The notes beneath the pieces were generated by a model. The model was not told where the DNA came from, made no database searches, and saw nothing but the letters and a program-made list of their open reading frames with translations. This document shows positions 4,207 through 44,807 of a stretch of 64,000 bases of DNA, in pieces. Numbering within the stretch: position 1 is the stretch's first letter; the number at the start of each line of letters is the position of its first letter. The position numbers were made by a program, and so were the translations under genes. Source of the DNA: Bifidobacterium catenulatum PV20-2 (GTDB lineage: Bacteria > Actinomycetota > Actinomycetes > Actinomycetales > Bifidobacteriaceae); assembly GCF_000800455.1 (NCBI RefSeq), contig NZ_CP007456.1:1736001-1800000 (forward strand). The letters run 5' to 3'.

Positions 4207-4304
4207 AAGTAACTGCAGTATCTACAACTTGAGAGAAATGACGATTCATAAGCATTGCAGTGCACATGAATCGCCATTCATGGAAGGCAAGAGAGGGAAT
4301 CATC

Positions 4305-4883
4305 ATGGCCAACGAAGAAGTCGACCGAAGAGCAGAGATTCTCAATGCGGCCGTCGAACTGTTTGGAATGCTCGGCTATTACGGCACTTCCCTACAGAAA
4401 ATCGCCGACCGCGTAGGACTCACCAAGGCCGGCGTACTGCATTATGTCGGCAGTAAGGAAGGACTGCTCACAGCCGCGCTGGACGAAGTCTACGATTCCG
4501 AAACGGAAGACATTCTTACCGACATAGTGCGTGAGCCACGACCGCTGATCGCTGACATGTGGCGCAAAATCGTGGCTGTGAACGCACGCAGACCGCTTCA
4601 GGTGCACATGTTTTCCACATTAAGCGCTGAAGCGATCGACCCGAACCATCCTGCGCACGGGTATTTCGCCAAACGCGAGCTACGTAATGCCGATACGGCA
4701 CTCAACATTCGTTGGCGAGTGCCCGAAGGCGTTGATACGCGTCGGCTGCTTAATGCGGGATTCGCCATGATGGACGGCGTGCAGCTGCGTTGGCTGCGCA
4801 CGCCCGGCCAGGATCTGAACGCCATGTGGGCGGAATGCGAAGACGCCCTGTTCCCCCTGCCTATGTGGGAGGGCTACCGCTAA
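4305..4883 (+). CDS. TetR-family regulator of the GH3/glycerate kinase module
   Basis: This is a 192-residue TetR repressor. The N-terminal HTH reads RRAEILNAAVELFGMLGYYG followed by TSLQKIADRVGLTKAGVLHY, the classic TetR pattern. The C-terminal ligand and dimer domain ends with MDGVQLRWLRTP...LFPLPMWEGYR. This ending is shared with the TetR proteins at 20395 and 34086 and so marks a paralogous family in this window. The ATG at 4305 is preferred over 4260 because AGAGGGA precedes it at normal spacing. It is divergent from the GH3 gene and 55 bases upstream of a glycerate kinase, so it probably represses both until a glycoside or sugar acid ligand binds. The ligand is unknown. Confidence 0.9.
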   Translation: MANEEVDRRAEILNAAVELFGMLGYYGTSLQKIADRVGLTKAGVLHYVGSKEGLLTAALDEVYDSETEDILTDIVREPRPLIADMWRKIVAVNARRPLQVHMFSTLSAEAIDPNHPAHGYFAKRELRNADTALNIRWRVPEGVDTRRLLNAGFAMMDGVQLRWLRTPGQDLNAMWAECEDALFPLPMWEGYR

Positions 4884-16027: not shown

Positions 16028-16149
16028 GTTTAGTATATCATATACGCATCCGCAACTCGACATAACCCCATCAACGCAAAAGGCAAGAGACCATCAGCCC
16101 CTCGCCTTTTCGCACGCGCATGCAATGCAATCTCAACAAGTATCCAAAA

Positions 16150-16647
16150 TCAACGATACGCATCCCACAACGGAGATGGAAACAGCATGTTTTCTATCTG
16201 AGCCCACTCTTTGCACAAATCAACTTCAGGCTCGCGCAACCACCATAATTGCATGCCATCCATGATTTCCATGGACTTACGCACCACCGGACGCATACTC
16301 GACTTCCGCGAACCCAATTACGGAGGAATCAGCCAAGGATATCGCGAATAATTCTCCCAAATATCGTCCATACGAGCAGTGAATTCATCATGCAACGGAT
16401 GTTCGGGATTCAACGATTCCGCAGAAAGCACGGTAAACAACTGCACCATCATGCGGCGTCGCGAATTATGCCGCACCAAATAACGCAAGTATGCGGGAAA
16501 CAGCGGCGCGGTAGGATCACTGCCAGGCATACCGGATGCGAAGAAATCCTCAGCAGTCCCCGCCCACCCCGTAATGCGGATGCGACGATACTGCGCAACG
16601 AGGCGTTGCTGGCCGGTTGAGAGGGAACATACGAGATTCCCTAACAA
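16150..16647 (-). pseudogene. Degraded TetR-family regulator
   Basis: The minus-strand frame from about 16590 to 16150 matches the intact TetR at 20395 almost residue by residue: AEDFFASGMPGSDPTAPLFP, YLVRHNSRRRMMVQLFTVLS, WWLREPEVDLCKEW, LFPSPLWDAYR. A TAA stop replaces the glutamine codon after PWLIPP (near 16320), and the frame continues unchanged behind it. The whole N-terminal HTH is gone; upstream of the conserved part the sequence no longer resembles TetR. It is a paralogue remnant sitting just upstream of the GH3 gene it may once have controlled. Confidence 0.85.
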
Positions 16648-16846
16648 CTATCCTCAAACCCAGTGATAGCAAGACTTTCAGCGATTACTGGTTTGATTGC
16701 AGCACTCTATTTGTCACTCTAAGCGCCTATCAGGGCATCTGATTTACACATTTACTCTTTTTACTCTTCGCGGTTTTGAAAAGAGTAACAAAACGTTGGA
16801 ATTCCAACGTTCTTACTTACACTTTTACACTTTGCAGAGTTGTCTA

Positions 16847-17422
16847 TCATGTGCATTTTCTGTTCAAAAGCCTCAAACCTATTAACATATTGAACTTTGG
16901 AATCGACCACGATTCGTAGGCAGCGTGGTACCGCCTTTTCAGCTGTCGCAGCACCTCCGCCAGCTCGGTGTCATGGTGCAGCTGGACATACACGACCCCA
17001 GTGGCCGACGATGAATTCAGAGGCTCGGAGAAACAGGTGCCGACGGGCTCGAGATCGGCGGAGATGAAACCGTCGACCGATGAAAGCTCGTCGATCGTGC
17101 TGATGTCCACGAGTCTTCCGGTCTGGACGGGAAGATCGATATTGGCGACGATTCCCGGAATCGATTCCGATGCCTCGCAATCATATTCACAATTCAGCGA
17201 TGCCGCAGTGATGGGTCTGGAGGAATCCAGCTTCCTCGCGACGTCCAGTACCTCCGTCACATCCGCTATGTCATGCACGTAATGCAGATTCGCATCGTGC
17301 GGATACAGCGGAGTGTACTTACGTTCCGTGATAACGTCCACGCGGTCTCCAGGCACGAATTTGACCAAGTGACAGTAGGCGTCGGTTTTACCTGAATTGA
17401 GCAGAATCACATGTTCACTCAT
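16847..17422 (-). CDS. ATP-grasp-like protein lacking the catalytic core
   Basis: This 191-residue protein has an N-terminal half that looks like a pre-ATP-grasp domain: HVILLNSGKTDAYCHLVKF, then DRVDVITERKY, then VLDVARKLDSSRPITAASLN, parallel to the first ~100 residues of its neighbour at 17415. From about residue 101 it continues with DELSSVDGFISADLEPVGTC and SSSATGVVYVQLHHDTELAE, which resembles the C-terminal subdomain of ATP-grasp ligases. The nucleotide-binding core between them, usually 200 or more residues, is absent. The ATG at 17422 overlaps the ligase stop by 8 bases (ATGAGTGA) and has AAAGGA upstream, so the two are probably translationally coupled. It may be an in-frame deletion product or a non-catalytic partner. 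Confidence 0.65.
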   Translation of the reverse strand: MSEHVILLNSGKTDAYCHLVKFVPGDRVDVITERKYTPLYPHDANLHYVHDIADVTEVLDVARKLDSSRPITAASLNCEYDCEASESIPGIVANIDLPVQTGRLVDISTIDELSSVDGFISADLEPVGTCFSEPLNSSSATGVVYVQLHHDTELAEVLRQLKRRYHAAYESWSIPKFNMLIGLRLLNRKCT

Positions 17423-18602
17423 TGTCATTCCTTTCATACGCAACGTTTTCCACCAAGCCGAGCATACGTTCCCGCTCCCGCTCGTTTCCGCCCCGGACGA
17501 CCGCCCCACCGACATAGTCGGCCGCATCCGTGGGATTGTTCGGCTGTCCCGAATCCCATAGGTCCAACAGCCATCCGTCCGAGTCCAATGGCTTGCGGAG
17601 CCGGTTCCCGCCCGTTCTGACCAGCCATCCGGTCTTCTTGCCGTCGTCCACACTGGGAACGACCGACGCGGGAAGCCCCAACTCCAATCTCACGAACTGT
17701 TCGGAGATGTCGAAGCCGTACGCGGATTGGATTGATTGTTTGATGAGTCCACCGCCGACCCTCGCCGCGACCTCCCCGCATCGCGCGTGCCCCGAGGCGT
17801 CGTCTATGAATTCGAAATGCAGCACGTGGACGCCGCCGTCCTCGGGCAGCCCCTTCGCGAAACGTCCCACGAGATCGATGATTTCCAAGCGTTTCAGGGA
17901 GGCGTTGTCCAGCATCACGGATCCGTAGTTCTCCTCCTTAAACATGCATGGCTTATGAATGTAGCGGCTGACGGACGTGAACACCGGAATCCGGTCCTGG
18001 AGCAGCACATCCGCGTGATAGACATCTCCGGGCAGGTACTCCTCCACGAGGAGCATGTTCCCGTCGATCTCCTCACGGATGCCGCGATCCTGAAGCAGCC
18101 GGCCCACGTCATCAATGGTCTCCACGATGTGAACCCCGAACGCGCCGGCTCCATTGCGCGGCTTCACCACGGACGGCCCATGCTCTTCGACGAACGCTCC
18201 CAGGTCTTTCCCGGAACCGGCTAGGGCGAAGTCGGTGCTGGGAAGCGACGCCGCGGAGAACAACGACTTCATGCTGTACTTGTCACGAAATCCCTCCGCG
18301 AGAGGGAGCTTCATGCCCGGGACCGCGTACTGCGACCGGACGGCCGCCACCCGTTCCACATCGTCTTCGGAATTGCAGATGATGCGGTCGCATCCCGAAC
18401 AGGCGATGGACGACAAGGCCTTCCCGAACTCGTCGCTGTAGTATCGGTTCACCAGCACGAGATCGCAGTAGCCCTCATTCGCTTCAGCAGCCTTCGATCC
18501 CTTCTCGCTAACGAGGAACAGCCGGCAGCCCGGTATCAATTCCCTCACCCATTTGGCGTACTGCGAGCCGGACGACGGACGTTGGCATATGACTATCTTC
18601 AA
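17415..18602 (-). CDS. ATP-grasp ligase (amino-acid ligase-like)
   Basis: This is a 395-residue carboxylate-amine ligase of the ATP-grasp superfamily, which activates a carboxylate as acyl phosphate and joins it to an amine. The order is a pre-ATP-grasp domain (1-100), then the nucleotide-binding core with GPSVVKPRNGAGAFGVHIVE at about 160 and MLLVEEYLPGDVYHADVLLQ at about 195, and the Mg-binding segment HFEFIDD...GEVAARVGGGLI at about 270-295. The start is TTG at 18602, supported by GGGAGGAAT five bases upstream. It follows an MFS gene by 69 bases. Ligases of this size beside an exporter occur in dipeptide pathways such as bacilysin (BacD/BacE), but the substrates here cannot be read. Confidence 0.82.
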   Translation of the reverse strand: MKIVICQRPSSGSQYAKWVRELIPGCRLFLVSEKGSKAAEANEGYCDLVLVNRYYSDEFGKALSSIACSGCDRIICNSEDDVERVAAVRSQYAVPGMKLPLAEGFRDKYSMKSLFSAASLPSTDFALAGSGKDLGAFVEEHGPSVVKPRNGAGAFGVHIVETIDDVGRLLQDRGIREEIDGNMLLVEEYLPGDVYHADVLLQDRIPVFTSVSRYIHKPCMFKEENYGSVMLDNASLKRLEIIDLVGRFAKGLPEDGGVHVLHFEFIDDASGHARCGEVAARVGGGLIKQSIQSAYGFDISEQFVRLELGLPASVVPSVDDGKKTGWLVRTGGNRLRKPLDSDGWLLDLWDSGQPNNPTDAADYVGGAVVRGGNERERERMLGLVENVAYERNDNE

Positions 18603-18671
18603 GATTCCTCCCTTGCTGTTTGGATACGAGATCCGCAGAAGCCCCGCGGATCGAATCGCCGCTTTTGGCCG

Positions 18672-19886
18672 CTACTTCGAACGCGTGCGTACTGCCAGCC
18701 TTGCGATGGGCCCGTAGGACAGTCCCGTGAGCAGGAACACCATTGCCAGGACCAGCCATCCCGCCGGCGAATCGGCATGGGCGACGCCGGTCAGGATCAT
18801 CGGAGAGACCAGCGCCATGGTATCGGCCCCGGCATTCAGAACACCTTGGTATTCGCCGAGCAGATCATCGCTGGACATCTCGAAGCCGAAGGACCATGCC
18901 GACGCGGACTGCCACAGTTCGCCACAAAGATGCATCAACCCCGCCGCCACGAGCATGACGACGGACAACCACACCACCGCTTCCCTGGACAGCGCCAACA
19001 AAACACAGGCGGCGCAGAGCGACAAGCCGCTTCGCAATCCGGCCCGTCCCGCACCGCGAATCGAATCCGTTCCCCTGGCGAACCTCACCTGCAGCAGGAT
19101 GACGCCGACCGTGTTCACGAGAAGCAACGCGGATACCATGCCGTTCGGAATCGATTTGGCAGAGGCGATCCATATCGGCAGAGCGATGGTCAGGATCCCG
19201 TCATGAAGATAGAGGACGGCATTGGCCGCCGTCGCCAGCAGGAACGGCACATCCCTCACCGCGACGAGACCCATCCGGCCGTTCTTCCGGGAATGGGCGG
19301 ACGCGAATATCCCGCATTGGATGCCGCGTAGCATCAGCGCGGCGGCGAAATACGTGAGGACGTTGAACAGTATCAGGGCCACGAACACCGGACGCGTGCC
19401 GATGGTGAGCGGTATCGCAGACAGGACCGAGCCCATCGCGGTGCCGACGTTGGAGACCACGCGCAACATGGCCCTGTACGATACGCGGTTCTCCCCCTGC
19501 GAGATATGGGCGATGATGGGACCACGCGCCGCGGCGGCCCCTCGATCGGCCGTGGACACCACGGCCATGGTAATCCCCAGGCAGATGAAATTGTCCGTGA
19601 CGACATAGACGATCAAGCCCAATCCCTGCACGGCCAGAAGCGTGCGGTACATGGTCATCGCATCGACCTTGTCGGAGGCTCTTCCGAACAGCACGCTGCC
19701 CGCCAGACCGGCCACCGCGGAAAGCGTGAGGAACATGCTGAACAACGTCAACGGCATACCGAGGATCTGGGTGAAGTACAACGTGGACAACGCAAAGAAG
19801 ATGCCGCGACCAACGGAATTGATAAGCGTCGCCCGGGCGTATCGGCCTTCGTCGGCCTTCCCCCTCAAAACCGTCCAAATAGCCAT
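18672..19886 (-). CDS. MFS transporter, probable exporter of the ATP-grasp product
   Basis: This is a 404-residue MFS protein with about 12 membrane segments. It is not related in detail to the sugar carriers of this window; the motif-A position reads LFGRASDKVDAMTMYR, and overall it resembles drug-exporter-like MFS proteins. The ATG at 19886 is chosen because AAGGAGCG precedes it; an upstream in-frame ATG at 19925 lacks one. It is the first gene of a three-gene operon with the ATP-grasp ligase and the core-less ATP-grasp-like protein. Export of a small peptide-like product, with self-protection, is the simplest reading. Uptake of a substrate is the alternative. Confidence 0.8.
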   Translation of the reverse strand: MAIWTVLRGKADEGRYARATLINSVGRGIFFALSTLYFTQILGMPLTLFSMFLTLSAVAGLAGSVLFGRASDKVDAMTMYRTLLAVQGLGLIVYVVTDNFICLGITMAVVSTADRGAAAARGPIIAHISQGENRVSYRAMLRVVSNVGTAMGSVLSAIPLTIGTRPVFVALILFNVLTYFAAALMLRGIQCGIFASAHSRKNGRMGLVAVRDVPFLLATAANAVLYLHDGILTIALPIWIASAKSIPNGMVSALLLVNTVGVILLQVRFARGTDSIRGAGRAGLRSGLSLCAACVLLALSREAVVWLSVVMLVAAGLMHLCGELWQSASAWSFGFEMSSDDLLGEYQGVLNAGADTMALVSPMILTGVAHADSPAGWLVLAMVFLLTGLSYGPIARLAVRTRSK

Positions 19887-20346
19887 ATCCAACGCTCCTT
19901 CACCATGACCATGGCAATCCCCCAAATCGACATCCGCGTTTTACGACCTAGACTAACTGCCCCCCTACTAGTCATGTGGAATTATAGCACTTCTCGTAAA
20001 AGATATGTCACGCCTCGTCAGTCTTATCTCACAATCATCACTGGCACCATTCAATGGAGGGAACTCCAATCTGCGTATTGCATAAATCACGCACAAAACT
20101 TGCGTAGTTCGGCGGAAGACATCACCTCATCCTCAGACATCGGTCAAACCATGGCACTCTCCACGGAATACGCCGTGACCAGATGAACAGACAAGAAACC
20201 ACACGCAAACGAAAAGCAACCCGATATATGGGAAGTGCAGTAGCAGGTAGTCTGACTGCATCAAAATGGTCGACATCTCAGGAAAATAGCATGTTTCTTT
20301 CAGCAAACTTTTCAGACACTACCACAATAGAAGATAAGCAAAATGA
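19887..20346. promoter_or_regulatory. Gene-free region with promoter of the MFS/ATP-grasp operon
   Basis: No supported gene lies in this AT-rich gap. On the minus strand a perfect TATAAT (complement of 19981-19986) lies about 95 bases before the MFS start. GTGACA (complement of 20006-20011) sits 19 bases upstream of it as a weak -35. A 69-codon plus-strand frame at 20183-20392 has no ribosome-binding site or family signature and was not accepted. Confidence 0.45.
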
Positions 20347-20394: not shown

Positions 20395-21030
20395 TCAGCG
20401 GTATGCATCCCAGAGGGGCGCGGGAAACAGCAGATTCTCCATTTCGGACCATTCCTCGCACAAGTCCACTTCCGGTTCGCGCAGCCACCACAGCTGAATG
20501 CCATCCATGATTTCCATGGCTTTGCGCACCACCGGCCGCATGCTGCCGGCCCATGCACCCAATTGCGGCGGAACCACCCACGGGTATTTCGAGTATCGTT
20601 CCCAGATGTCCTCCATGCGTCCCATGAATTCGTCATGCAATGGATGATCCGGGTTCAGGGATTCCGCCGACAGCACGGTGAACAGCTGCACCATCATGCG
20701 CCGGCGCGAGTTGTGTTTCACCAGGTAGCGCAGATACGCGGGAAAATGCGGCGCGGACGGGTCGCTGCCCGGCGTGCCCGAAGAGAAGAAGTCCTCCGGC
20801 GTGCCGGTCTGCCCGTAATATTCGTCATATACCAGCGCCAGCATATTGTCTTTGTTGTCGACGTATCGCAGCACGCCTTGTTTGGAGATGCCGACCCTGT
20901 CGGCCACGTCCTGGATGGAAATGCCATTGAACCCACGCTCGCTGATCAGCTGAACCGCAGCATCCAGCACTTCCGCTCGACGCTCCTGCGGTGATTTTCG
21001 AATACGTTTCGAAGTCTCTTCCTCTGCCAT
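20395..21030 (-). CDS. TetR-family regulator
   Basis: This is a 211-residue TetR protein. The HTH reads RRAEVLDAAVQLISERGFNG followed by ISIQDVADRVGISKQGVLRY, after a basic RIRKSPQE leader that is shared with the TetR at 34086. The C-terminal domain contains FFSSGTPGSDPSAPHFPAYL and ends MDGIQLWWLREPEVDL...LFPAPLWDAYR. It is the intact paralogue of the broken gene at 16150. It lies 47 bases downstream of the GH5 gene on the same strand, so it is likely co-transcribed with it. No Shine-Dalgarno stands out before the ATG, so a leaderless or weakly translated message is possible. A candidate operator may lie at 21038-21057. Confidence 0.9.
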   Translation of the reverse strand: MAEEETSKRIRKSPQERRAEVLDAAVQLISERGFNGISIQDVADRVGISKQGVLRYVDNKDNMLALVYDEYYGQTGTPEDFFSSGTPGSDPSAPHFPAYLRYLVKHNSRRRMMVQLFTVLSAESLNPDHPLHDEFMGRMEDIWERYSKYPWVVPPQLGAWAGSMRPVVRKAMEIMDGIQLWWLREPEVDLCEEWSEMENLLFPAPLWDAYR

Positions 21031-27823: not shown

Positions 27824-28450
27824 ATGCATCGCCGCACCGAAAGCAAACCCAAAAAACGAATGAGTGCAGAAGACCGTAAGAAAGCGATTCTCGAAACCAC
27901 GGTATCCTTCATCTCACAATTCGGTTTCTGGGGCTTCACCATTCGTGACGTGGCACAAGCTCAGAACATCACCGAAGCAGGCCTCCTTTACTACTTCAAA
28001 TCCAAAGAACAACTCCTTGAAGAAACCCTCAAATACGCCGATCGCACCAACCAGATCGCCATTGCAGAGCATCTTGGCGTCGACGGCGTGACCGGCGAAG
28101 TCCTGCAAGACGGCATCGCATACCATTGCGATCTTGGTCTTAAAGCCATCTCCACAGGCACCGTGGAAACCAACGCCATCCGCCCCGAAATGGTTCGTCT
28201 TTACACCCTGCTCGAAAGCGAGGCCTTAAGCAAAGACCATCCGGTGCACGAGTATTTCGAACAGCGCGAAATCAATCTGCTGAAGGAATACACGTTCGCA
28301 GCCGAGCGAGATGGCGTTGCCGATCCGGAACGCACCGCACTGCAGGTACTGTCCGCCATGGAAGGACTGCAATTGCGCTGGCTCAACGGATCACACGATG
28401 TCGATTTCGTTGGGGAATGGAAGGCCATGATCGACCTTCTCATTCCCTAA
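27824..28450 (+). CDS. TetR-family regulator
   Basis: This is a 208-residue TetR protein. The HTH region reads RKKAILETTVSFISQFGFWG followed by FTIRDVAQAQNITEAGLLYY. The C-terminal domain has LLESEALSKDHPVHEYFEQR and MEGLQLRWLNG, a diverged form of the ending shared by the other TetR proteins here. AAAGGAGAG fixes the ATG. It is transcribed away from the MFS gene and towards the convergent GH42 gene, whose stop lies 20 bases beyond. Repeated ACTTAGTAA sites before this gene and before the GH5 at 24434 point to those two as its targets. Confidence 0.92.
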   Translation: MHRRTESKPKKRMSAEDRKKAILETTVSFISQFGFWGFTIRDVAQAQNITEAGLLYYFKSKEQLLEETLKYADRTNQIAIAEHLGVDGVTGEVLQDGIAYHCDLGLKAISTGTVETNAIRPEMVRLYTLLESEALSKDHPVHEYFEQREINLLKEYTFAAERDGVADPERTALQVLSAMEGLQLRWLNGSHDVDFVGEWKAMIDLLIP

Positions 28451-34085: not shown

Positions 34086-34715
34086 TTAGCGGTAGCCGTC
34101 CCAGATGGGCGAGGGGAAAATCATCTTTTCGAAGACAAGCCATTCGTCGTAGAAGTCAATGGGCGGCTGGCGGAGCCAACGCAACTGAATGCCGTCCATT
34201 GCCTCCAAACTTTGCCTCACGTATGCCCGCATATTCTCCCAACCACCAATTTCAGGCGGCAGCTTCCAAGTAAAACTCGAATAATGCTCCCACACGTATT
34301 TCGGTCGATTCTCGAAATAGTCATGCAACGGATGATCCTCGCTGAACGACTCGGTTTCCAACACCATGTATAGCTGCAACAAGCTGCGTCGGCTCGCATT
34401 GTAGCGAACCAAGAATCGCAAGTAGGCGGGGAATAGCATGCCTTCCGGATCACTGCCGGGTAGTCCCGACTTCGCAAAATCAGCAGGAGTACCCTCCTGA
34501 TCGTAATTGTCGGTGACCAACAGCGACAGCAACCGTTCCTTGTTGCCGATGTAATGCAGCAATCCAGGCTGGCTCATGCCAATCGCATCAGCAATATCTT
34601 TCAACGATGTACCGTAATACCCCTTTTCCCCGATAAGACGGCTCGCCGCAGCTATGATTTCCTTCTTACGTTCCTCAGGCGATTTCCGAACGCGCTTCTT
34701 CCCCTCATTACCCAT
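34086..34715 (-). CDS. TetR-family regulator
   Basis: This is a 209-residue TetR protein. A basic RVRKSPEERKK leader is followed by the HTH (EIIAAASRLIGEKGYYG, then TSLKDIADAIGMSQPGLLHY). The C-terminal domain contains DFAKSGLPGSDPEGMLFPAY and ends with MDGIQLRWLRQPPIDF...IFPSPIWDGYR, the ending shared with the TetR proteins at 4305 and 20395. An inverted repeat at 34730-34749, 15 bases before the ATG, suggests autoregulation. The same motif occurs twice upstream of the GH42 gene 4 kb away. No glycosidase is directly adjacent. The Shine-Dalgarno is weak. Confidence 0.92.
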   Translation of the reverse strand: MGNEGKKRVRKSPEERKKEIIAAASRLIGEKGYYGTSLKDIADAIGMSQPGLLHYIGNKERLLSLLVTDNYDQEGTPADFAKSGLPGSDPEGMLFPAYLRFLVRYNASRRSLLQLYMVLETESFSEDHPLHDYFENRPKYVWEHYSSFTWKLPPEIGGWENMRAYVRQSLEAMDGIQLRWLRQPPIDFYDEWLVFEKMIFPSPIWDGYR

Positions 34716-34895: not shown

Positions 34896-36167
34896 TTACT
34901 TCTGGAACACGTCAGGATGCTTTGGATCGCCGGGCTCGTCGGCAAGCACACCTTCGAGCCCTAAGAATTCCTGCCAGAATTCCAGCGAATTGCCATACGG
35001 AGCGGCCTGATGTCCACGCGCCTGCAGGTTCGCCTTCGCCTCAAGCACGTCTTCCTCGCGAATGCCATCGAAATACGATTCGAGACGCTCACGGTTCGTT
35101 GGATCATAGAACAGCGATCCGATGATTTCCGTCAGTCGTTCCGCACGCGCTATCGGCAGTGAATCCCAGTGACGGAATTCAATGAAGTTCTTCAGACGGA
35201 CATCATTGAAATGCGTGGAAATCACATGATTGATCTCATATGCGTTGAGTTCTCGATCAGGATACACGTCGTTAGCATTCTCATAGAATGCAGGATGATG
35301 CAGATCAGTTCCGGGAGTTTCCAACGCTTCCGGAGTGTGCGTCAGATCAGCGAACATCATCGGCGTGCTCAACACGTCAACCGCATAATCCTCCCAACCG
35401 AAGCGAGGGTCAAACAATCCCGGAATAACGTTCGTGCGCTGCAAATCCAAATAATCCCACATGCGTTGGCGCAGCAACGGATACGGGTTCTCCTGCCCCT
35501 CGAAATACGGGGTGTTACGGAAGAACCAGGCGAGAATCGGGCCGACCACCGTGCCCAAACGCAGTTTAGAAATCGCATCCTGTTCGGAAACATAGTCGAT
35601 GCTGACCTGCGTCGAAGCGGAGCAACGCATCATGCACGGACCGAACTGGCCGACGCGCCCCAAATACGCGGTCATCGCCTTGTAACGGTCCTTCGGATTG
35701 ACGGGAATGTCGGCATAGCCGGACTTCGGCTGATACCCGTAATTGACCAAGCGAAAGCCGAGATCGTCAAGCACAGGATCGACTTCGCGGCGGAACGCTC
35801 CGTAAATCGTGCGCAGATCTTCCGGCTTGTGCAGAATGCCCAGCGAGCATTCCAGCTGACCGCCCGGCTCAAGCGACACGGAAATACCTTCGCGGCCAAG
35901 GCCAACAAGCCTGCCGTTCTCCCAGTATTCCTTGCTTTCGTCGTAATACGGGCGAATACGGTTCAGTAACGCCTCGATGCCGTTCTCCTCGTAATAGTTC
36001 ACGGCGGTATCATCGCTGTTATGTACCGGCAGATGCTCGATTTCCACACCGAAACCGCCGGTTCCGCGTTCTTGGCAGCCTGATTCGAAGAACTTGACCA
36101 GACTTTCCACATGCTTCGGATTCGGCTCGGTAAGCAGGTGTGCATAAGAAATTCGTGGCGTTGTCAT
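34896..36167 (-). CDS. Glutamate-cysteine ligase, GCS2 family
   Basis: This 423-residue protein is of the GCS2/EgtA type, which forms gamma-glutamylcysteine from glutamate, cysteine and ATP. Family segments are GFGVEIEHLPVH near residue 30, REGISVSLEPGGQLECSLGI near 100 (the EPxxQxE substrate and metal motif), CMMRCSASTQVSIDY near 190, and LKNFIEFRHWDSLPIARA near 350. The ATG at 36167 is chosen because AGGA lies upstream and because this gives the family start; the frame is open to 36263. No glutathione synthetase lies nearby, so the product may be gamma-glutamylcysteine itself or another gamma-glutamyl compound. Confidence 0.85.
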   Translation of the reverse strand: MTTPRISYAHLLTEPNPKHVESLVKFFESGCQERGTGGFGVEIEHLPVHNSDDTAVNYYEENGIEALLNRIRPYYDESKEYWENGRLVGLGREGISVSLEPGGQLECSLGILHKPEDLRTIYGAFRREVDPVLDDLGFRLVNYGYQPKSGYADIPVNPKDRYKAMTAYLGRVGQFGPCMMRCSASTQVSIDYVSEQDAISKLRLGTVVGPILAWFFRNTPYFEGQENPYPLLRQRMWDYLDLQRTNVIPGLFDPRFGWEDYAVDVLSTPMMFADLTHTPEALETPGTDLHHPAFYENANDVYPDRELNAYEINHVISTHFNDVRLKNFIEFRHWDSLPIARAERLTEIIGSLFYDPTNRERLESYFDGIREEDVLEAKANLQARGHQAAPYGNSLEFWQEFLGLEGVLADEPGDPKHPDVFQK

Positions 36168-36378
36168 GTTGGCAATCCTATCGAAACTCATTGATGAGCA
36201 CGGCGCGATTGCTATACGAAAAACTGATAGCCAACTCTTGCGTATCCCGAATCGAATACACAATTTCGATTAAAACAGACATGCTCTGCAAAGACGACCA
36301 ATAATAATTAACAGCTGTCAATAAAGTCAGAAGCAATTACCACTATTTTGAAGAATTGTTTGTATACATCAAATGAAA

Positions 36379-42407: not shown

Positions 42408-44807
42408 TTACTTGGCTTCCTCGAACCATTCACGTTCGGAACCGTCGCCCAAGGTGACATGACCAGTTTCGCCGCTCATATGCTTGACGCGGTGCGCGAT
42501 CTCCTCGTGACGTCCGTGCACCATCGGGCGCTGCACCGGGTTGCCCAAGTAGCCGCAGGTGCGCTTGGTCACGTTGCAGTGGTCCGGGTCGGAGTTGCCG
42601 CACTCCGGGCACTTGAAACCTTCCTCAGTGGGCTCGAAGTCGCCTTGGAATCCGCAATCGTAGCAGCGGTCGATCGGCGTGTTCGTACCCAGGTAGCCGA
42701 TGCCGATGTTGTAGGCGTAATCCCACACCGCTTCGAGTGCCTTGGGGTTGGACTGCAGGCACGGGAACTCGCAGTAGTTGATGAAGCCGCCGGACGCGTA
42801 GTACGGGAAGTCCTTCTCGTAGTTGAGCTTTTCCATTGGGGTTGGCTGCAGCCAGACCGGATAGTGGAAGGAGTTGGTGTAGAAGTCGTGGTCGGTCACG
42901 CCTTCCACTTCGCCGAACTTCTCGTGGTCCATACGGTTGAAGCGGTCGGTGAGGGATTCGGCCGGCGTGGAGTACACGGAGTAGTGGTAGCCTTCCGCGT
43001 CGCTCCATTCCTTGCACAGCTCGTTCATGCGCTTGACGATGGACAGTGCGAACTCCTTGCCTTGCGGATCCCAGCCGTGATCGCGCATCCAGTTCTTGCC
43101 GTAGAACACGCTGGTCGCCTCATACAGGCCAATGTAGCCCAGGGAAACGGTGGCACGTTCGTTGCGGAACAGCTGGTCGACGCTGTCGTTGGCGCCGAGG
43201 CGACCGAAGGCTCCGAAACGGAACAGGGTCGGCGCATTGACCGGCGCGGCCTGCTTACAACGCATGATACGGAATTGCAATGCCTGATGAGCCACGGCCA
43301 TACGCTCGTCGAAGATCTTCCAGAAGCGATCCTTGTCGCCGTGGGATTCCAGTGCAATGCGCGGAACGTTCACGGTGACGACGCCAAGGTTCATGCGTCC
43401 GTCTTCCACGTCCTTGCCGGTCGCCGGATCAATCCAACCCTGCAAGAAGGAACGGCATCCCATCGGGGCTTTGAAGGAGCCGGTGATCTTCACGATGTTC
43501 TCGTAGAAGATCACGTCCGGATACATGCGCTTGGTGGCGCATTCGAGGGCGAGCTGCTTCAGATCGTAGTTCGGATCGCCCGGATCGGCGTTCACACCAT
43601 GCTTGATGGTGAACACGAGCTTCGGGAAAATGGCGGTGTGGTGTTCGGAACCGAGGCCGCGGATACGGTTCAGGAAGATGGCACGTTGAATCTCGCGGGC
43701 GAACCAGTCGGTGCCCAAACCGAAGCCAACGGTCACGAACGGGGTCTGGCCGTTCGACACACGATTGGAGTTGATCTGGTATTCCATGGTCTGCATGGCG
43801 TCGTAGATGGCCTTGCGGGTCTGGATCTTCGCCCACACCTCGCGCAGCTGCTGCAAACGACTGGCATCCTTGTTAAACGGCTCGTCCATCGGCAGGGCCG
43901 GACGGTCCTTTTCGAAATGCAGACGCTTCGGTTCGACATCCTTGGCCAAGCGTACCTGACGTTCGGCGATTTCAATCGGCAGATCGTCAGGCATGATCTC
44001 GTGGGCCTGCTCAAGGAATTTATCGTAATCTTTCCTGGCATATTCAACGAAGTGCTCATCGGCACGGTTGGCGGTCTGGCCGCCGTATTGGCTGGAAGCC
44101 ACGTCCTTCATGATCTGGGTAATCTGCGTGGCAGCGATAGAGATACTGTTCGGCGATCCCATCGGCGCGTTGCCGAGGGTGAAGCCGTTGGCGAGCATAT
44201 CCCAGTAGTTCGGCAGAGAGCAGTTGGATTGTGCGGTGAACGGCGAGTAGTCGGCGTCGTGGAAGTGGATGTCACCCTTCATATGGGCGTTGGAAACCGC
44301 GTCCGGCAGCATGGAGAAGGCGGACGCCTTGGACACCGCACCCGCCAGCAGATCGCGCTGGGTGGAGTAGACGTTGGAATCCTTGTTGGCGTTCTCGCGC
44401 ACCAGAGCCTCGTCACGGTTCACCAAACGCTTGACGGCTTCGTTGATGTCGGTGGCCTTGGCACGTTCGATGTCTTTGTTCAGACGGTAGTTGGTGTACG
44501 TGCGCGCCACATCGTACAGGTGGTCTTCAATCAGGCTGTGTTCAACGAGATTCTGGATGTCTTCGATCTTGGCGGGACCGTTGTAACGATCCTTGATTTC
44601 GGCTTCGACCTGATTGGCGATATCACGGATCAGCTGTTCCTCCTGCGGCCCGATCTTCTTATCAAGGTCGGCGAAGGCTGACTTCACCGCGCTGATGATG
44701 TTGATCGGATCGAAGTCGACCACACGACCGTCGCGCTTCTCAACGAGCACCTTACCGGTTCCCGTTTTAACGGTTGCGGAGACGGCATTCAGAGCCTGCG
44801 TTTCCAT
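42408..44807 (-). CDS. nrdD: Anaerobic (class III) ribonucleoside-triphosphate reductase
   Basis: This is a 799-residue class III ribonucleotide reductase that makes dNTPs without oxygen. An N-terminal ATP-cone is seen (VEKRDGRVVDFDPINIISAV). The barrel contains FHDADYSPFTAQSNC and the cysteine-bearing MGCRSFLQGW. The C-terminal zinc site has CYDC and CPEC. The glycyl radical is expected at G752 in VTKRTCGYLGNP. AAAGGATG precedes the start. Two NrdR-box-like sites lie upstream. nrdG follows. Confidence 0.97.
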   Translation of the reverse strand: METQALNAVSATVKTGTGKVLVEKRDGRVVDFDPINIISAVKSAFADLDKKIGPQEEQLIRDIANQVEAEIKDRYNGPAKIEDIQNLVEHSLIEDHLYDVARTYTNYRLNKDIERAKATDINEAVKRLVNRDEALVRENANKDSNVYSTQRDLLAGAVSKASAFSMLPDAVSNAHMKGDIHFHDADYSPFTAQSNCSLPNYWDMLANGFTLGNAPMGSPNSISIAATQITQIMKDVASSQYGGQTANRADEHFVEYARKDYDKFLEQAHEIMPDDLPIEIAERQVRLAKDVEPKRLHFEKDRPALPMDEPFNKDASRLQQLREVWAKIQTRKAIYDAMQTMEYQINSNRVSNGQTPFVTVGFGLGTDWFAREIQRAIFLNRIRGLGSEHHTAIFPKLVFTIKHGVNADPGDPNYDLKQLALECATKRMYPDVIFYENIVKITGSFKAPMGCRSFLQGWIDPATGKDVEDGRMNLGVVTVNVPRIALESHGDKDRFWKIFDERMAVAHQALQFRIMRCKQAAPVNAPTLFRFGAFGRLGANDSVDQLFRNERATVSLGYIGLYEATSVFYGKNWMRDHGWDPQGKEFALSIVKRMNELCKEWSDAEGYHYSVYSTPAESLTDRFNRMDHEKFGEVEGVTDHDFYTNSFHYPVWLQPTPMEKLNYEKDFPYYASGGFINYCEFPCLQSNPKALEAVWDYAYNIGIGYLGTNTPIDRCYDCGFQGDFEPTEEGFKCPECGNSDPDHCNVTKRTCGYLGNPVQRPMVHGRHEEIAHRVKHMSGETGHVTLGDGSEREWFEEAK

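Follow-up and report, generated by a model that had tools for sequence, protein, structure and literature searches.

Pairs of an amino acid ligase and an exporter of the major facilitator superfamily (MFS) are already a known kind of system. In the bacilysin pathway the ligase BacD is paired with the MFS exporter BacE next to the anticapsin genes, and in the Hil operon of Pantoea ananatis a putative ligase (HilD) and an MFS protein (HilE) were proposed to synthesize and export a dipeptide, according to the parts of PMC3684760 that deal with them. As described there, the Hil operon has a single ligase and also contains dioxygenases and a dehydrogenase for modified isoleucine. L-amino acid ligases form the amide bond via an acyl phosphate, as stated in the available portion of PMC9321006, and one with a solved structure is RizA from B. 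subtilis NBRC3134 (PDB 4WD3, assigned to RizA in an excerpt of PMC6920838). Here we analyze a three-gene operon in a 64,000-nucleotide stretch of Bifidobacterium catenulatum PV20-2 (contig NZ_CP007456.1, positions 1,736,001 to 1,800,000; referred to as the window). The first-pass annotation had described an MFS exporter, an ATP-grasp ligase and an ATP-grasp-like partner, and had compared them with BacD/BacE. This idea holds in outline and gains the Hil operon as another precedent, but the third gene was misread. By sequence comparison the intact system, here called cassette A, consists of an MFS protein and two predicted peptide ligases, lig1 and lig2, unlike BacD/BacE in having two ligases and in having no anticapsin genes within its island. 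We consider it probable that it is an accessory cassette that makes and exports a very short peptide.

All three genes lie on the minus strand of the window, in the order MFS, lig1, third open reading frame (ORF). The MFS gene (18672..19886, ATG start, 404 aa) and lig1 (17415..18602, TTG start, 395 aa) are separated by 69 bases, and the third ORF (16847..17422, ATG start, 191 aa) overlaps lig1 by 8 bases. A Shine-Dalgarno sequence, AAGGGAGG, stands directly upstream of the TTG codon, and the lig1 ortholog of B. oedipodis also starts with TTG. The layout is thus exactly as first reported.

Pfam detects no ATP-grasp domain in the third ORF; its only hit is a sub-threshold one (E = 0.013, 16.1 of 29.4 bits) to LAL_C2, which Pfam describes as the C-terminal domain of L-amino acid ligases. 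It aligns to the start and the end of a 404-residue ATP-grasp protein encoded directly after lig1 in B. oedipodis (L012). There the intact row MFS-lig1-lig2 is found at another site than in the window, which removes the earlier concern that the three genes might never occur together in a relative. In the numbering of the intact lig2 protein P0020, the window copy consists of residues 1–73 joined to residues 306–403, with 232 codons gone in frame, and the stop used by relatives is lost as well, adding 20 run-on residues. The lig2 family alignment (37 rows) has 18 invariant columns, 16 of them inside the deleted part. On these alignments the third ORF is what remains of lig2, a second ligase that is 403–404 aa long when complete and belongs to the RizA clade. 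As a working ligase it is rejected because the ATP-grasp core with its catalytic residues is deleted. The two retained pieces compared with B. oedipodis give dN 0.158/dS 1.295 (73 codons) and dN 0.145/dS 1.395 (97 codons), values that in this one genome pair fit a recent loss.

Intact lig2 exceeds the Pfam ATP-grasp_4 cut-off. P0020 matches RizA in phmmer with 1.1e-58 over residues 5–398, the lig2 family profile matches it with 1.3e-110, and the model of P0020 (pLDDT 93.8) retrieves RizA first in Foldseek (6.3e-41, TM 0.84). Both the predicted fold and full-length similarity to RizA were found for P0020 and the B. oedipodis protein. Among the matches listed (120 of 203), the intact alleles are P0017 (62 members), P0018 (1), P0019 (3), P0020 (78), P0021 (1), P0022 (24), P0023 (5) and the more distant P0024 (1), where member numbers, here and below, are cluster sizes and not strain frequencies. 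They come from B. oedipodis, a protein labelled B. longum and metagenomes; P0017 carries the NCBI name 'ATP-grasp domain-containing protein [Bifidobacterium longum]'. A search for damaged alleles among proteins of 105–334 aa found the window's junction in P0011 (96 members) and P0013 (1), other in-frame gaps in P0012 (5) and P0016 (3), and sequences reading as frameshifts in P0014 (2) and P0015 (1).

RizA is the best solved relative of lig1 as well, by both phmmer and Foldseek. The Pfam ATP-grasp matches of lig1 are all under cut-off (ATP-grasp_4, E = 9.6e-5, 22.5 of 27 bits). In phmmer against solved structures, 4wd3 comes first with 7.1e-17, followed by the L-amino acid ligase 30vh (0.0023), a purine enzyme (0.0066) and BacD (0.012–0.014). 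A 17-row lig1 profile gives 4wd3 with 1.2e-83 and then BL00235, 4dim, 30vh and BacD; the single-sequence result is the cleaner one, since the profile mixes in lig2-type and other ATP-grasp rows. An AlphaFold2 model computed from this mixed alignment reaches a pLDDT of 90.4 and is predicted to adopt the three-domain ATP-grasp fold of the RizA/BacD type. The structure comparison proposed by the first-pass annotation places RizA first (E = 1.2e-28, TM 0.76), YwfE/BacD second to fourth and BL00235 next, in keeping with the original reading of lig1 as a ligase of the L-amino-acid-ligase type. No LAL_C2 (PF18603) match is found for lig1 in Pfam at E up to 1. We do not treat this domain as defining for the whole ligase kind, because RizA-type and BacD-type C-terminal domains differ.

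The positions of RizA E82, K151, R285 and G288 are kept in lig1, and the active-site positions are also kept in intact lig2. The substrate site is different. K83 is replaced by D or R, S84 by D in lig1, and D376 is not kept. An Arg-Xaa specificity like that of RizA is therefore not supported and should not be assumed. The loop of the second-substrate pocket, T81, E82, K83 and S84 of RizA in the part of PMC9321006 that describes it, reads SEDD in lig1 and SERS in lig2, so the two ligases probably differ in their second substrate.

The MFS protein exceeds the Pfam MFS_1 cut-off (8.9e-12, 45 bits against a cut-off of 33.4) and is likely an exporter. It shares 87% identity with its B. oedipodis counterpart over 396 residues. 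Comparison of the window with B. oedipodis gives dN 0.080 and dS 0.592 over 404 codons for the MFS gene, and dN 0.114 and dS 0.788 over 391 codons for lig1; both genes look constrained in this one genome pair. The lig1 cluster, P0001, comprises 294 sequences.

The cassette is accessory, as judged by genome searches: 8/112 genomes of the genus hold cassette A or its one-ligase cousin, cassette B. At 1e-3, lig1 has a match in nine of the 112 genomes, that in G083 being weak and partial; at 1e-10 it has a match in 8/189 genomes of the family, from one of 16 genera. Cassette A is found in the window's genome (G000) and in G053, whose coordinates are those of the B. oedipodis contig. Cassette B pairs a 412-aa MFS protein with one ligase of 395–410 aa and is present with intact frames in G001, G019, G020, G028 and G060. 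It resembles cassette A in its lig1-clade ligase and MFS gene and, in all of these except G028, in its tetR site. It differs in having one ligase, 32–34% identical to lig1, in lying in the opposite orientation at that site (L014 7508-9973, L015 7403-9868, L016 7129-9594, L017 7059-9524), and in its MFS protein, which has no detectable similarity by blastp to that of cassette A (best E 0.011). The cassette B ligase of G001 is presumably BAD_1200. A B. adolescentis ligase of that name was reportedly assayed by Arai and Kino in 2010. The stretch at 42408-44807 of the window is 97% identical to G019, G020 and G060 and 90% identical to G001, which places the window near the first three. Lacto-N-biose phosphorylase (PF09508), tried as a species marker, gave no match, but it was equally absent from the results for all 14 control genomes and so carries no information. 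With related cassettes in seven other genomes of the genus, the initial impression that such a system would be new for bifidobacteria is weakened. The newer features are the combination of two ligases, the repeated breakage of this arrangement and the exchange of cargo described below; the searched open-licence literature, in the portions available, contains no description of the cassette.

A tree of 32 rows unites lig1 with the cassette B ligases and with two ligases from the genus of G387 in a single clade (100/100), separate from RizA, with which lig2 groups (96/98). We call that genus Streptomyces-type, on the basis of Streptomyces names among close lig2 relatives. Adding five plasmid proteins leaves the lig1 clade in place (99/98), now joined by a ligase from Vibrio. 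At 1e-40, with at most six candidates scored per genome, the lig1-type ligase of G387 is matched in two of 295 genomes of the Streptomyces-type genus, G387 itself and G594, and in both a lig2-type gene lies about 3 kb from the lig1-type gene. The order in G387 (L069 1230-10104) is TetR, a LAL_C2 ligase, MFS, lig1, an ORF that by eye resembles a lysine or ornithine N-monooxygenase, an APH-like protein and lig2; the cluster thus has three ATP-grasp ligases. Across 394 genomes of the class, with at most four candidates scored per genome, lig2-type genes are found at 1e-20 in 16, the window included, and seven of the 15 other loci were inspected. A tblastn search with lig1 of 72,556 plasmids gave 78 records, four covering at least 80% of lig1 and none above 60% identity, and the loci of two plasmids were inspected. 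On a Vibrio europaeus plasmid (L082, NZ_CP064859.1; 5659-16056), genes for a lig1-clade ligase, an MFS protein and a second ATP-grasp protein, the last with sub-threshold Pfam matches, come one after another, in a row as in intact cassette A. Unlike cassette A, this operon is set among genes annotated as alanine racemase, kinase, aminotransferase and glyA (serine hydroxymethyltransferase), and it looks like a small-peptide cluster. An Apilactobacillus kunkeei plasmid (L083 9001-15339) carries three consecutive ATP-grasp genes and, at some distance from them, an MFS gene, next to a polyketide cluster (PMC9648514). The first of these ligases falls outside the lig1 clade in the tree with the plasmid proteins.

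The site of the cassette is, by comparison with related genomes, a tetR gene split by insertion of an island. Both flanks, up to 16438 on the left and from 20225 on the right, share 94–97% identity with the four genomes that carry cassette B at this site. A cargo-free version is seen in G038, a genome without a lig1 match, where GH3, one whole tetR gene (L079 2745-3380), GH5 and GH43 follow each other. In the window, the native 3' portion of the split gene has been left stranded on the left side of the cargo (16148..16562, minus strand); it has acquired an early stop and is 88–98% identical to the G038 tetR per 50-base block over most of its length. To the right stands a full-length hybrid tetR (20395..21030, minus strand), with TetR_N over cut-off and a native start joined to a foreign remainder: identity to G038 is 96–98% down to about 20880 and 68–82% beyond. 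G001 has the right hybrid too, and the left edges differ. The common right hybrid suggests that the insertion was probably one event and that the cargo was swapped later. A 91-base stretch (20225..20315) that also follows cassette B in one genome, G051, hints that cassette B stood at the site before cassette A. No integrase gene is seen in the island in the ORF listing of the window, and there is no other complete gene between its edges; the flanks are tetR and glycosidase genes. Since the cassette splits a tetR gene that is whole in one relative with an empty site, the glycan surroundings, to which the first-pass annotation had drawn attention, are probably incidental, and in B. oedipodis the cassette sits elsewhere.

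Directly 3' of the operon is a terminator-like palindrome (16790..16813, minus strand) with a 10-pair stem and a T-rich tail. It contains a perfect 20-base palindrome (16792-16811), unique in the window at up to three mismatches; terminator scanning of the window as a whole was not above chance, with 3 found against 3.6 expected. By eye, further TetR-like ORFs lie at 4260-4883, 27824-28450 and 34086-34715, and an ORF at 34896-36263 resembles glutamate-cysteine ligase.

From these features we infer a mechanism. In the intact system, each ligase would spend ATP to convert a carboxylate into an acyl phosphate and would then couple this to a further amino acid through its amino group. Together the two enzymes would yield either a tripeptide, by acting in sequence, or two different dipeptides, and the MFS protein would pump the product out of the cell. 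Because the island contains no other complete gene, both enzymes probably draw on ordinary amino acids or on common cell acids as substrates. The differing second substrates suggested by the SEDD and SERS loops would favor sequential or distinct products over redundancy. Since the ATP-grasp core of lig2 is lost in this strain, a single bond-forming step would be left and only the lig1 product could still be made, as in the one-ligase cassette B. A defence system was considered and rejected, as no PADLOC defence family was found for lig1, the MFS protein or P0020.

Several observations weigh against a peptide-making and exporting cassette. PurK-type enzymes appear from the sixth Foldseek rank of lig1 with a TM of about 0.70, so the fold alone does not separate them from the lig1/lig2 ligases. 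The MFS protein reaches no exporter family cut-off in NCBIfam, where its resemblance to a multidrug family (E = 0.005) stays below threshold, and no MFS gene was found in G594 with three MFS queries. Moreover, the system is often lost: lig2 is broken in many relatives, with at least five distinct lesions including that of the window, lig1 is broken in P0005 and P0006, and cassette B has decayed in G051, where it lies away from the window's site (L018 7471-10635) with ligase and MFS gene each split over several frames.

The similarity of fold and the weak NCBIfam matches could suggest that lig1 is a housekeeping ATP-grasp enzyme of the purine, biotin, D-Ala-D-Ala or carbamoyl phosphate type. 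We reject this as highly improbable, because none of the 14 NCBIfam families matched by lig1 reaches its cut-off (best 52.4 of 625 bits), its distribution in the family is sparse, and RizA, BL00235 and BacD rank higher by fold and, apart from 4dim and 30vh, by profile. The losses listed above, together with the deleted core and missing stop of lig2 in the window, would fit a decaying relic in which lig1 and the MFS gene would be lost in turn and nothing useful is made. This seems improbable to us, as both genes are intact and apparently constrained, the lig1 cluster is large, and the five genomes with an intact cassette B suggest that one ligase and a pump form a workable system. It is scarcely credible that the lig2 remnant is retained as a small non-catalytic subunit. 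Three damaged forms do keep an open frame across the gap (the P0011/P0013 junction, P0012 and P0016), and the remaining pieces have a low dN/dS against B. oedipodis. Recent loss predicts such values equally, different deletions retain different parts, the listing of damaged alleles can show open frames only, and the window copy lacks its stop.

A further alternative concerns the product. The ligases could join amino acids to non-amino carboxylic acids, in which case amino-acid conjugates and not plain peptides would be exported. Bifidobacteria make aromatic lactic acids, ATP-grasp carboxylate-amine ligases vary widely in substrate, and the second-substrate loops of lig1 and lig2 are different. 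On the other hand, the nearest solved relatives are amino acid ligases and no gene of the cassette supplies such acids, and we regard conjugates as unlikely. Returning to a cassette that makes and exports a very short peptide, its role may lie in competition or signalling among gut bifidobacteria. Strains would repeatedly delete lig2 or swap the cargo at the split tetR gene, giving producers of different compounds and perhaps non-producers that can still respond to the exported tripeptide or dipeptide pair. We offer this role as a tentative and rather doubtful suggestion.

If the peptide cassette is correctly identified, gut bifidobacteria would possess an exchangeable route to an exported small peptide, variable from strain to strain and masked by annotations such as 'ATP-grasp protein', 'MFS transporter' and 'hypothetical protein'. 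Genomes with both ligases intact, with lig2 deleted, with cassette B or with a cargo-free site together provide a natural set in which the product could be tested by comparative metabolomics. As the lig1 clade is common to two Streptomyces-type genomes and a Vibrio plasmid, it may also flag more peptide-forming clusters.

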